From IMG/VR virus record IMGVR_UViG_3300034010_000796, positions 1-21,354 of that record: DNA of 21,354 nucleotides; one strand, written 5' to 3'. This stretch comes from a virus. Made by a program: the position numbers and the translations under genes. Shown in pieces: positions 14,165-21,307 of this stretch (position 1 is the first letter of the stretch; every line of letters starts with the position of its first letter). The notes beneath the pieces are model-generated. The model ran no database searches, was not told where the DNA came from, and worked only from the letters and a program-made list of their open reading frames with translations.

Positions 14165-15892
14165 CTACTCGCCGTCCGACATAGCCCGGTACCGCCGGGG
14201 ATCGCTTTGCTCGCCGTAGCGGCCGCTGAGGCGGTCCCAATTCAGGCGCGCCATGCCAAGCCGCCCGACGTACTTGTGGCGGACCTTCTGCACATGAACC
14301 TCGACCTCGCTGGTGGCGACCCCGGCCTTGCGCTCGCGCCAGATCGATATGCAGCAGTCGACCTTGTTGTTCCAGTTGGCACTGCCCGAGATTTCGTAGG
14401 GGCCGACAACCGGGTACTGCCCGCTGCTCTCATCGCGCCTGAGCTTCTGCGGATGCGCCACGATCCAAACGTGCACCGCATGAGACCTGGCAAAGCGCCG
14501 GATACGCGAGAGTGAAGCGCCGATGTACTCGGTCTCGGTCATCGAGACGGGCCGCGCATGCTCGATCTCGTTCCACGGATCCAGGATCAGGCCGCGCACG
14601 CCGCGCCGTAGGACCAGCTGGCCCGCAATGGCCAGCAACGCATCCAGCGTCGGCTGCTCAGGCTCCAGCCAGGTGAAATGCTGATCGAGCCACGTTACAG
14701 CCTGATCGAGCTCGCTGGCGCTGATGCGGGCGCTCGGCCCGCGATTGAATGGCCGGCCGACGTACTTCTCCGCCAGCTTGGCGATGTGCTCGGCCGCGGA
14801 TCCCTGTTCGGGCGAGTAGACGCCCATGCGCCAGTCGTGGTCGCGGGCGAGGTTCACGGCCAGCGCATCAAGCCACTCGCTCTTGCCGCTGTTGGGTGCG
14901 CCGGTGACCACGGTCACGTCGCCCGGCCGCACGCGGTACAGCGCGTCGATGCTTGGCCATCCCGACGACACGCCTTGCGGGATCCCGTGCTCGTAAAGCC
15001 GCTGCACCTGGTCAACGTAATCACCCGCCCCATGCGCTCCGACGATCGGAAGTTCCCGCGCGTCGTTCAGGCAGGCCAGCAGGACATCGACGCCCAACTG
15101 GACAAGCACGTCGTTGGCATCCTTGCAGCCGTCGGGCCAATCGACCACCCGGCACTTTTCCGGCCCGAGACGGCGGATCAGTTCCTCGCGCAGGCGCTGG
15201 CCCGGCTCATCGCTGTCTACCGCGATGACGTGCTCGGTGACGCGCGACAGTTCCGGCGCATCGAGGAAGTCGAACTTGGATTCGTAGTTTTTCGAGTCGG
15301 GCGCGGGCGCGCCGTCTGGCACGCTGACGCAAGAGGCGATGCTGGCGGCCTCGACCGAGAGCTTGTCCATCTCGCCCTCGACCCACACCAGACGCTCGCC
15401 TACGTCGTCCAGGCCGTACAGCACCCGCTCGCAGCCGCCTTCCATGCGAAACAGCTTGTCGCCGGTCCGGTACTTGACGTTGACCACCTCGCCGCGCCGC
15501 CGATACGGGAACATGATGCAGCCGCGCTCTTCCTCGACCTGCGGGAAGTAGGCGCTGCCGTGACCGATCATGTTTCGACGCAGCACCGACTCGCCGATCC
15601 CGCGCGACGTGAACCAGGCCAGCACCTTCTCCGGCAGCCCGGTCGATTGCGCCACGTAGTCCGGCTTCCGGTGCGCTTTGGTGAACGTTGGCCGCGAGTG
15701 CTCGCCCTGCGCGAGCGAGCCCGCCCAGCCGCAGTGCCAGCAATGCCACAGCCCCTTGTCGATGTTGACGTTCAGGCAGGGATAGCGCGCCTTCCTGCGC
15801 GCCGCCGAGCAGCGCGGGCAGACGGTCTTGAGCTCGCCGCCCGACTTGCCCTTGGTGTCGATGCCGGCGTCCGCGAAAGTGCGCGCTGTCAT
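14165..15892 (-). CDS. Bifunctional primase-helicase (T7 gp4 / Twinkle-like)
   Basis: 575 aa. Expected to prime lagging-strand synthesis and unwind DNA 5' to 3' as a hexamer during element replication. A zinc-binding domain has Cys25, Cys28, Cys51 and Cys54 (CPRC and CWHC). A TOPRIM primase core follows with EGEMDK at E172 and DSDEPG at D226. A DnaB-type RecA domain has Walker A GAPNSGKS at 331-338 and Walker B LILDPWNE, then a helical region with SGSANWNNKVD. The length and domain order match the family. ATG at 15892 overlaps the initiator stop codon (ATGA). It is the last gene of the replication operon; position after an O-like initiator supports a self-contained replication module. Confidence 0.95.
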   Translation of the reverse strand: MTARTFADAGIDTKGKSGGELKTVCPRCSAARRKARYPCLNVNIDKGLWHCWHCGWAGSLAQGEHSRPTFTKAHRKPDYVAQSTGLPEKVLAWFTSRGIGESVLRRNMIGHGSAYFPQVEEERGCIMFPYRRRGEVVNVKYRTGDKLFRMEGGCERVLYGLDDVGERLVWVEGEMDKLSVEAASIASCVSVPDGAPAPDSKNYESKFDFLDAPELSRVTEHVIAVDSDEPGQRLREELIRRLGPEKCRVVDWPDGCKDANDVLVQLGVDVLLACLNDARELPIVGAHGAGDYVDQVQRLYEHGIPQGVSSGWPSIDALYRVRPGDVTVVTGAPNSGKSEWLDALAVNLARDHDWRMGVYSPEQGSAAEHIAKLAEKYVGRPFNRGPSARISASELDQAVTWLDQHFTWLEPEQPTLDALLAIAGQLVLRRGVRGLILDPWNEIEHARPVSMTETEYIGASLSRIRRFARSHAVHVWIVAHPQKLRRDESSGQYPVVGPYEISGSANWNNKVDCCISIWRERKAGVATSEVEVHVQKVRHKYVGRLGMARLNWDRLSGRYGEQSDPRRYRAMSDGE

Positions 15893-16602
15893 CCGACGAA
15901 CTCCCTGGTCTTGGGTTTCATGGCCGCGGCGATGTAGCTGCGGGGATCGGCCTTCGGATTCATCGCCAGGTAGCCGATCGTCTCGGCGAGCTTCTTCTCG
16001 TCCTGCTTGGCATGGCGACCCAGGAAGGCCCTTGCGCTGGCCTCGGTCAAGCCGCGGCGCTTCAGAAGATCAACGCCGACCCGCCAGATGAGCTCCCTGG
16101 GGTAGTCGGCGCCAAGCGGTTGGTATCCGGCCGACGCTTCGGCGTCCGGCGCAGCCGGGATCGTCATTGGTTCAATGACGGTTAAGGACGGATCGGGTGT
16201 CCTGTAGGACAGGGGTGTGCGTCCTGTAGGACACCCCTGTGCGTCCTCAAGGACACCCGTGTCCTCAAGGACAGGGGTGTCCTCAAGGACAGGGGTGTCC
16301 TCAAGGACAGGGGTGCTGATGATCTGCATGTTGAGTCGCCAACGGCGCGTTGACCCCAGCCCTGGGCGACCTCCGGTGGCGGACCCATCGGGTACCAGGA
16401 CGCCGTCGAACTCGAGGTCTCGCATCAGCTTCTGCACTTGGCGCGGCCGGCACCGCATCCGCTTGGCCAGGGTGTCGACACTGGGGAAGATCCTGCCGCC
16501 AGCGTCATCGGCGAACTCGGCGAGGATGACAAGCAGCAGCAGGTGACTGCCTCCCCTGGGGTAGTCGCAGCGGAGGACCGCGGAAACGCATTGGATGCTC
16601 AC
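15889..16602 (-). CDS. Lambda-O-like replication initiator containing origin iterons
   Basis: 237 aa. Expected to bind the origin and help load the downstream helicase. Residues about 15-90 look like a winged helix (LLLLVILAEFADDAGGRIFP, SVDTLAKRMRCRPRQVQKLM), as in phage replication initiators. The middle is a low-complexity repeat of TPVLED (about 97-120) encoded by the iteron array at 16198-16309. The C-terminal 70 residues form a separate helical domain (GLTEASARAFLGRHAKQDEK). GTG at 16602 overlaps the upstream TGA (GTGA), so the much longer frame reaching 17055 is rejected. The origin within the initiator gene mirrors lambda O. Confidence 0.87.
   Translation of the reverse strand: MSIQCVSAVLRCDYPRGGSHLLLLVILAEFADDAGGRIFPSVDTLAKRMRCRPRQVQKLMRDLEFDGVLVPDGSATGGRPGLGSTRRWRLNMQIISTPVLEDTPVLEDTPVLEDTGVLEDAQGCPTGRTPLSYRTPDPSLTVIEPMTIPAAPDAEASAGYQPLGADYPRELIWRVGVDLLKRRGLTEASARAFLGRHAKQDEKKLAETIGYLAMNPKADPRSYIAAAMKPKTREFVG
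16162..16180. repeat. Perfect 8-bp hairpin beside the iteron array
   Basis: CGTCATTG, loop GTT, CAATGACG. It is within the initiator coding sequence, 17 bases from the first iteron, in one of the most AT-rich short stretches of this gene. Possible second element of the origin. Confidence 0.6.
16198..16309. repeat. Six palindromic iterons, putative replication origin
   Basis: Six copies of TGTCCT-NN-AGGACA start at 16198, 16220, 16242, 16260, 16278 and 16296 (spacing 22, 22, 18, 18, 18). Copies 1-2 have centre GT, copies 3-6 centre CA; copies 2 and 3 have C for the first T. Linkers are runs of G or C (GGGGTGTG, CCCCTGTG, CCCG, GGGG, GGGG). In the initiator protein the four CA copies are read as VLED, copy 2 as CPTG and copy 1 as SYRT, that is in three different frames, so the DNA motif rather than the peptide is conserved. 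Binding by the encoded initiator is inferred from the lambda O example. Confidence 0.82.
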
Positions 16603-18728: not shown

Positions 18729-19037
18729 TCATGCCGCCAGCCGCAATTCGATCGGCTTGATCTTCGCTACCTTCTTCTGCAGCACCGCCGACTGCCGCGC
18801 GCGCCACAGGTCGTGGCTCGCCTGCATGTGCGCCCACGACTCCGCGGACCCGCCCAGCGCCTTGGCCAGCCGTACCGCCATCTCGGCGCTGACGCCAGCC
18901 CGACCATGCAGCAGACGAGACAGCGCCACCCGCGAGACGCCCAGCAACTGCGCGAACTCGGTCACGCTGATGCCGGCATTGATCACGCCGTCCATGAGCA
19001 CTTCGCCGGGATGCGGGGGACTGAACATCTTGGTCAT
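18729..19037 (-). CDS. higA: HigA-family antitoxin (XRE HTH)
   Basis: 102 aa. Opens with the family signature SPPHPGEVLMDGVI, then a helix-turn-helix (ISVTEFAQLLGVSRVALSRL, followed by LHGRAGVSAEMAVRLAKALG). HigA binds and neutralises HigB and represses their operon. It begins 10 bases after the higB stop, with ATG at 19037 and a GAGGA site. The toxin-first order is typical of HigBA. Its stop lies in the palindrome TGAGCGCTCA (18722-18731). Confidence 0.95.
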   Translation of the reverse strand: MTKMFSPPHPGEVLMDGVINAGISVTEFAQLLGVSRVALSRLLHGRAGVSAEMAVRLAKALGGSAESWAHMQASHDLWRARQSAVLQKKVAKIKPIELRLAA

Positions 19038-19047
19038 CTCGTCCTCG

Positions 19048-19326
19048 TCAGTGGTAGTCGCGGTAATCCACGAGCACCGCGTCCCCGCCCTCGAACCGGA
19101 AGGTCAGTCGCCAGTTCTTGTCGACCCACACCGCCCAATGGCCTTTCAGCTCACCCTTGAGCGGGTGCAGACGCCAGCCTGGCAGGTTCATGTCGTCGGG
19201 GCCGGTCGCACTGTCGAGCCGGCCAAGCTGAAGCCGCAGTCGAGCAGCGTGCGCAGCCTGAATTCCGGAGTTGCTGCCCGTCTCGTAGAACTTCTTGATG
19301 CCCTTGTGGATGAAGGAGCGAATCAC
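19048..19326 (-). CDS. higB: HigB-family toxin (RelE superfamily mRNA interferase)
   Basis: 92 aa from GTG 19326 (VIRSFIHKGIKKFYETG). Contains the family pattern HAARLRLQLGRLD, DMNLPGWRLHPLKGELKGHW and ends with WRLTFRFEGGDAVLVDYRDYH. HigB toxins cleave translated mRNA on the ribosome and stop growth. Probably stabilises the element. An upstream ATG at 19371 would pass through the operator and promoter, so I reject it. The GTG lies only 6 bases after the predicted -10 box, so the message may be leaderless. Confidence 0.94.
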   Translation of the reverse strand: MIRSFIHKGIKKFYETGSNSGIQAAHAARLRLQLGRLDSATGPDDMNLPGWRLHPLKGELKGHWAVWVDKNWRLTFRFEGGDAVLVDYRDYH

Positions 19327-19332
19327 GACTGG

Positions 19333-19361
19333 ACTGTATCGCGTGGCGATACACCCGTCAA
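19333..19361 (-). promoter_or_regulatory. higBA promoter
   Basis: On the minus strand, -35 TTGACG (19361-19356) and -10 TACAGT (19338-19333) are separated by exactly 17 bases. The -35 box matches 5 of 6 and the -10 box 4 of 6 of the sigma-70 consensus. Confidence 0.7.
19335..19353. promoter_or_regulatory. higBA operator
   Basis: Perfect inverted repeat TGTATCGC, 3-base centre, GCGATACA, overlapping the -10 box and spacer of the higBA promoter. A site for HigA repression is the natural reading. A second smaller inverted repeat, GTGAT-CA-ATCAC, lies just upstream at 19364-19375. Confidence 0.75.
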
Positions 19362-19367
19362 CTGTGA

Positions 19368-19652
19368 TCAATCACGAGCCGGCAGATACTTGACTGCTTG
19401 ATCGTGTAGCCAGGCGACGTTCGCCCGTCCCGGCTCGGCCATCTGCGCCACAAGCCGGCTTGCATCGGCATACAGGTCGCGCGGGTCGCCTGCCCAAAGC
19501 ACCTGCCCGTCCGACTCGATCGAGACGCGCGTTGCAGTAGAGCGCGGACCATCGAAGTCGTTGCTGATCCGCATGCGGCCTGTCAGCGGGCCGCGGACAA
19601 AGGCGGGCATCGCAGTCGCAGCGTTTGAGTTGATATCGTTTGCAGCAGCCAT
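19368..19652 (-). CDS. Small hypothetical protein between integrase and HigBA
   Basis: 94 aa; family not recognised. Soluble and mixed in composition, with RMRISNDFDGPRSTATRVSI and ESDGQVLWAGDPRDLYADAS suggesting a beta-strand start and helical end. ATG at 19652 has an ideal ribosome binding site (GGAGGT, 4 bases upstream). Its stop codon lies at the edge of the higBA promoter region. Confidence 0.72.
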   Translation of the reverse strand: MAAANDINSNAATAMPAFVRGPLTGRMRISNDFDGPRSTATRVSIESDGQVLWAGDPRDLYADASRLVAQMAEPGRANVAWLHDQAVKYLPARD

Positions 19653-21212: not shown

Positions 21213-21227
21213 CTGGCGGAGACGGAG
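21213..21227. repeat. attachment repeat at tRNA-Ser 3' end, integrase side
   Basis: CTGGCGGAGACGGAG, 15 bases identical to 1892-1906. It covers the CCA end and acceptor 3' strand of tRNA-Ser plus one base. Confidence 0.85.
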
Positions 21228-21307
21228 GGATTCGAACCCTCGATGCACGTTTTTGCGCGCATGCTCCCTTAGCAGGGGAGTGCCTTCGACCTCTCGGCCA
21301 CGTCTCC
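21214..21307 (-). tRNA. tRNA-Ser(GCT)
   Basis: A 94-nt class II tRNA on the minus strand: acceptor GGAGACG / CGTCTCC, D arm TGGCCGAGAGGTCGAAGGC, anticodon stem CTCCC / GGGAG enclosing CTGCTAA (anticodon GCT), a long variable arm, T loop TTCGAAT and encoded CCA. Intact despite serving as integration site. Its promoter region is mostly beyond the window. Confidence 0.97.

Follow-up and report, generated by a model that had tools for sequence, protein, structure and literature searches.

In phage lambda, dimers of the O protein bind 19-bp imperfect inverted repeats, and unwinding takes place in the AT tract next to them (PMC7466680). The four annotated iterons of gene O lie at gene positions 348, 368, 392 and 415, in frames 0, 2, 2 and 1 respectively, and the GC minimum of the gene falls at 437-473 (19% GC). 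In gene 18 of P22, the GC minimum at 438 comes just after the last of the repeated TCGGTAA words. The lambdoid Stx phages, which possess six iterons, belong to the same origin group as these two genes. Origins are also found inside initiator genes of other types. In the RepA_N plasmid pSK41, the origin boxes are central in rep and encode the linker between the DNA-binding and partner-binding domains of Rep, and comparison of pPR9 with pSK41 indicated that domain and origin were swapped as a cassette (PMC5703833). In phage SPP1, oriL is located inside gene 38, so that direct repeats and an AT-rich unwinding element are contained within the initiator gene (PMC6316719).

The locus described here belongs to a 21,354-nt stretch of viral DNA, analysed at its full length and referred to below as the window. 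Six dyads with the core GTCCTNNAGGAC are located at 16198-16309, inside a minus-strand initiator gene (Table 1). All six match the 14-base sequence TGTCCTNNAGGACA with at most one mismatch; four match it perfectly, and in the other two a terminal T is replaced by C. Since the core is perfect in 6/6 dyads, each site is an inverted repeat. In window order, successive dyads are separated by steps of 22, 22, 18, 18 and 18 bp. Gene-strand positions confirmed the description given in the initial annotation, of six palindromes within an initiator coding sequence, read as VLED four times (frame 0), as CPTG (frame 1) and as SYRT (frame 2). Iterons 1-4, spaced 18 bp apart, stay in one frame, and this part of the array looks like the product of a six-codon tandem duplication. 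The 22-bp spacing moves the frame by one per step, and the use of three frames therefore follows from the spacing. A search for the dyad over the whole window returned 11 hits, against a mean of 4.28 and a maximum of 10 after shuffling. The five hits outside the array had three mismatches each, at chance level, and no perfect copy was found elsewhere in the record.

The linkers between the dyads read CCCC, CCCC, CGGG, CACAGGGG and CACACCCC on the gene strand. C runs and G runs of switching polarity, as previously noted, are thus present. Most iterons have either a G run on the left or a C run on the right, and none has both together. The natural reading, made by eye, is that GGGGTGTCCT represents a half-site extended on one side of each dyad, the switch in polarity indicating which side is extended.

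Table 1. Coordinates of the array, its host gene and other features of the window.
Feature	Position	Strand	Gene-strand start (frame)	Sequence, reading or basis
Iteron 1 (first in gene direction)	16296..16309		294 (0)	TGTCCTCAAGGACA on + strand, read VLED
Iteron 2	16278..16291		312 (0)	TGTCCTCAAGGACA, read VLED
Iteron 3	16260..16273		330 (0)	TGTCCTCAAGGACA, read VLED
Iteron 4	16242..16255		348 (0)	CGTCCTCAAGGACA, read VLED
Iteron 5	16220..16233		370 (1)	CGTCCTGTAGGACA, read CPTG
Iteron 6, adjoining AT tract	16198..16211		392 (2)	TGTCCTGTAGGACA, read SYRT
Putative DNA unwinding element (AT tract)	16160..16195			lowest-GC 36 bp of the gene, directly after last iteron
Replication initiator gene, GTG start, 237 aa	15889..16602	-		HTH_36, PHROG matches, AlphaFold model
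Winged-helix DNA-binding domain, residues about 1-90	16333..16602	-		model; HTH_36 residues 19-64
C-terminal helical domain, residues about 165-237	15889..16110	-		helices 169-227 in model
Primase/helicase (TOPRIM + DnaB-type ATPase)	14165..15892	-		phrog_239 E=1.4e-88; Toprim_4, Toprim_2, AAA_25
Polyvalent protein, 2613 aa	2863-10704	-		inorganic pyrophosphatase-like, RadC-like and LPD38 domains
HigB-type toxin gene, then Xre-type HTH gene	18729-19371	-		

The product of the gene falls among the phage replication initiators that have an HTH_36 winged helix. Pfam detected this domain at E=5e-10 (39.5 bits, curated cut-off 25), and PHROG matches comprised phrog_1032 (replication initiation protein, 8e-9), phrog_391 (O-like, 1.6e-5) and phrog_270. 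The protein had no match in Pfam to Phage_rep_O (PF04492), a profile matched by lambda O (5.7e-36), P22 gp18 (6.9e-38) and one of the contigs discussed below, L253 (2.8e-25); the RepA_N profile was likewise absent among its Pfam matches. An AlphaFold model built from nine sequences was of moderate quality (mean pLDDT 59), and only its outline was used. It consists of a winged helix (helices 18-29, 42-49 and 53-65 with two wing strands), a disordered region at 97-160 (pLDDT <50) and, at 169-227, a helical C-terminal domain. The stretch encoded by the iterons, residues 99-135, falls within the predicted disordered linker between winged helix and C-terminal helices, which is the lambda-type location of such sites, between the DNA-binding and C-terminal domains. 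A Foldseek search with the model returned only winged helices above E=0.2, with the initiator structures 4pt7 and 5kbj at E about 0.3.

The AT tract begins 3 bp past the last iteron. Its GC content is 47%, compared with 65% for the gene, placing it within the lowest 0.6% of 36-mers in the record. An AT-rich tract beside the last iteron is thus found here as in lambda-type origins, though at 47% GC versus 19% in lambda. The start of the primase/helicase gene overlaps the stop of the initiator gene.

The window and lambda therefore have in common inverted-repeat iterons, three frames, a 3′ AT tract and a replication partner gene next to the initiator; in lambda O, P22 gene 18 and the window alike, the iterons occupy the linker between N-terminal DNA-binding and C-terminal domains. 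The lambda-like arrangement foreseen in the initial annotation was supported. The use of three frames, offered there as a special trait, is not one, since the iterons of lambda use frames 0, 2, 2 and 1; nor does the dyad form set the locus apart, the lambda iteron being itself a 19-bp imperfect inverted repeat (PMC7466680). Differences concern the N-terminal domain (HTH_36 in place of the Phage_rep_O of lambda and P22), the iteron sequence, which is unrelated to lambda-type iterons, the weaker AT tract, and the neighbouring gene, which encodes a primase/helicase in the window, the P loader in lambda and a DnaB-type helicase in P22. The locus is a new example of an already known design, with a lambda-like origin layout and a protein outside the Pfam lambda O family. 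pSK41 Rep also has its origin boxes in the linker-coding part of the initiator gene, but its partner is the host DnaG, as opposed to the element's own primase/helicase, and the RepA_N profile is missing here. SPP1 differs from the window in its separate loader and helicase and in its second origin, oriR, and the likeness noted is one of layout.

We are highly confident that the array constitutes a lambda-type replication origin of an integrated phage-like element. At such an origin, the six dyad iterons, situated where the gene encodes the linker, would be bound by dimers of the initiator that this gene specifies, and the dimers would come together in a complex. This complex would melt the adjacent AT-rich tract, and the C-terminal domain, which is predicted to contact the primase/helicase encoded by the next gene, would recruit it for the start of replication.

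Relatives of the primase/helicase numbered 68 in viral contigs, and the gene preceding them often encoded a different initiator. Repeat-bearing initiators located before the same primase/helicase contained iterons of several kinds: GGGGTTACCGA with TCGGTAACCCC in L253, L255, L257 and L259-L261, GTAGGTGCTGACAGCACC in L265 and L266, GCGGTCAAC in L268 and AACGGGGTGTCAC in L299. These repeats occupy several frames with a GC minimum right behind the last one, a position found in most of the repeat-bearing relatives tested. L253, L257, L265, L268 and L299, together with the L299 cassette relatives L323-L328, resemble the window in gene position, in iterons often spaced by ~22 bp and in the AT tract behind them; they differ from it in iteron sequence and winged helix. 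By eye, GGGGT also starts the half-sites of L253-type and L299-type iterons. Similarity to the initiator identified further repeat types in the same place in Arthrobacter phages and Bordetella phage PHB09; in the Arthrobacter phage genes, GC content is lowest at another point of the gene and not right after the repeats. The Arthrobacter phage initiator genes L005-L008 have three to four copies of an 11-bp unit, GAACCGTCCTT, behind their iterons, in three reading frames. Similar words (TCCTTAACCGTCATTGAACC) occur in the AT tracts of the window and L299, and a second conserved DNA element may exist behind the iterons. In L318, a related initiator (within ORF 196-1770) is encoded downstream of the primase/helicase and has in-frame RDVQ repeats with a 12-bp unit, possibly another iteron type.

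Synonymous change was compared between pairs of these relatives, at codons whose amino acid is identical in the two genes. In L265/L266, changes affected 34/75 such codons in the winged helix, 4/37 in the iterons, 0/18 in the AT tract and 15/71 in the C-terminus (p=5.5e-5). The corresponding counts were 35/81, 2/40, 0/8 and 42/109 for L255/L257 (p=1.3e-7), and 27/82, 0/32, 0/15 and 27/87 for L005/L006 (p=1.8e-7). In L323/L328, we counted 40/82 in the winged helix, 2/34 in the iterons and 1/14 in the AT tract (p=1.5e-7). Very similar pairs, such as L260/L276, carried no information, and comparisons made inside one family are not independent of each other. Amino acids do vary in the iteron stretches of these four families. 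The comparison shows DNA-level constraint on iterons and AT tract in four related families whose iteron sequences differ from that of the window. In these relatives with other iteron sequences, the check proposed in the initial annotation, whether sites are kept while the peptide changes, gave the predicted outcome.

Exchange between relatives provided further evidence. Between L265 and L299, identity is 97.6% over 3,289 bp starting within the initiator gene and 94.2% over 917 bp upstream, whereas no alignment was obtained for the unrelated ~455 bp in between, which encompass winged helix, iterons and AT tract. L324-L328 combine the N-terminal cassette of L299 with a different C-terminal domain, and L252, L317 and L318 have the C-terminal domain of the window following unrelated N-termini. 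Cassette exchange and domain shuffling indicate that iterons move together with the DNA-binding domain, which would be expected of a binding domain and its target sites; the swap in plasmid pPR9 relative to pSK41 is a parallel from the literature (PMC5703833). Very probably, judging from this analysis, the six palindromes of the window are binding sites of the protein encoded by the same gene. For the evolution of such origins, L265 and L299 provide a natural swap of complete DNA-binding domain and origin cassettes between almost identical phages. We also entertain, as a speculation that we consider unlikely as it stands, the idea that winged helix, iterons and AT tract make up a single portable unit of recombination between initiators with different C-terminal helicase-recruiting domains, and that the iterons of several cassettes share the outer half-site GGGGT (seen by eye) around a variable core. 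Should both parts hold true, iteron sequence would become predictable from the winged helix across many phages.

Binding by the initiator, or by another regulator, could instead serve chiefly in transcriptional control of the replication operon, the dyads being operators and not an origin. Tandem dyads would fit any winged-helix dimer, and autoregulation is compatible with binding inside the gene. The array is nevertheless ~300 bp into the gene and not at its start, the AT tract lies next to it as in lambda, and in phage relatives the array is swapped together with winged helix and AT tract. We regard this explanation as very improbable compared with a replication origin.

Slightly less credible still is that a TPVLED peptide repeat (cf. 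the Pfam LED repeat) has a function of its own as linker, the palindromes being a by-product of codon choice. Four of the six copies do encode the same peptide in one frame, exactly six codons apart, and there is a weak match to the LED repeat profile (PF20854, E=0.00075); this match reaches 19.8 bits, well below the curated cut-off of 59, and the linker is predicted to be disordered. When the same peptide was back-translated with the codon usage of the record, 20,000 synonymous rewrites contained 0-4 dyads each and never more, compared with six observed. This result agrees with the earlier assertion that a peptide repeat alone is insufficient. The probability of a dyad was ~0.16 for each VLED site, 3.2e-5 for CPTG and 3.2e-3 for SYRT (product 6e-11), the latter two requiring the rare codons CCT, ACA, GGA and AGG. 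Since the dyads exceed codon chance, including the two out-of-frame copies, it is the DNA word that is kept and not the peptide. In the related families, likewise, amino acids change and synonymous sites do not.

Searches for the dyad of the window identified one distant HTH_36 initiator, L100, which has two copies of TGTCCTCCAGGACA and a third with one change. These dyads read VLQD, SSRT and CPTG, use three frames and lie ahead of an AT-rich stretch of their own; the winged helix of L100 is only distantly similar to that of the window, and either common descent or convergence would account for the shared dyad. L100 was one of three viral contigs (with L021 and L030) that remained after a scan for pairs of closely placed GTCCTNNAGGAC dyads, in which flanks were restricted because most initial hits were collagen-like Gly-Pro repeats. 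The other two were rejected as initiators: in L021 the dyads fall between two phage genes, as three GTCCTGGAGGAC dyads with a 22-bp period (1339-1396), and L030 encodes a protein with VLQ-type short repeats. The collections searched yielded no close relative sharing the window's iteron sequence. Protein scans of genome and viral contigs with the initiator revealed no relative, none of the examined members of 120 genome-contig stretches contained a related initiator, and a 396-genome sample gave only two weak initiator matches. Looser dyad patterns led to unrelated proteins or nothing, and a blastn search for the array gave no relevant phage hit. A GC-rich viral contig, L341, has many dispersed GTGTCC/GGACAC half-sites at ~780-1000 in a predicted membrane protein gene.

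A spreading palindromic element, or neutral tandem expansion without binding function, would account for the exact 18-bp unit of 3/5 spacings, which is typical of slippage, but is scarcely credible given that the record has no other copy, that iterons 4-6 keep the dyad at 22-bp spacing while linkers and centres differ, and that the dyad recurs at the equivalent position in the distant L100 initiator. The proposal that these are origin iterons inside an O-like initiator gene is supported instead by initiator homology, the AT tract, synonymous constraint in relatives, cassette exchange and the lambda/P22 layout. This locates a concrete candidate origin in an uncharacterised element, where a lambda-like layout is combined with a primase/helicase. 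It also suggests a signature for finding origins: multi-frame repeats in the linker of an initiator gene, suppressed synonymous change, and an AT tract after them.

Elsewhere in the window, a 15-bp direct repeat, CTGGCGGAGACGGAG, is present at 1892-1906 and 21213-21227, and one of its copies overlaps a tRNA-Ser gene (21214-21307) at the 3′ end, beside an integrase gene. The two copies are probably the attachment sites that bound an integrated element, about 19.3 kb long. Among the proteins scanned between 1892 and 21227 (Pfam, PHROGs), none was recognised as capsid, terminase or tail. This may reflect a satellite, a degraded prophage or structural genes that escaped recognition. A stretch of the 2613-aa polyvalent protein matches the DarB-like antirestriction PHROG 10089, and the Xre-type HTH gene that follows the HigB-type toxin gene probably encodes its antitoxin.
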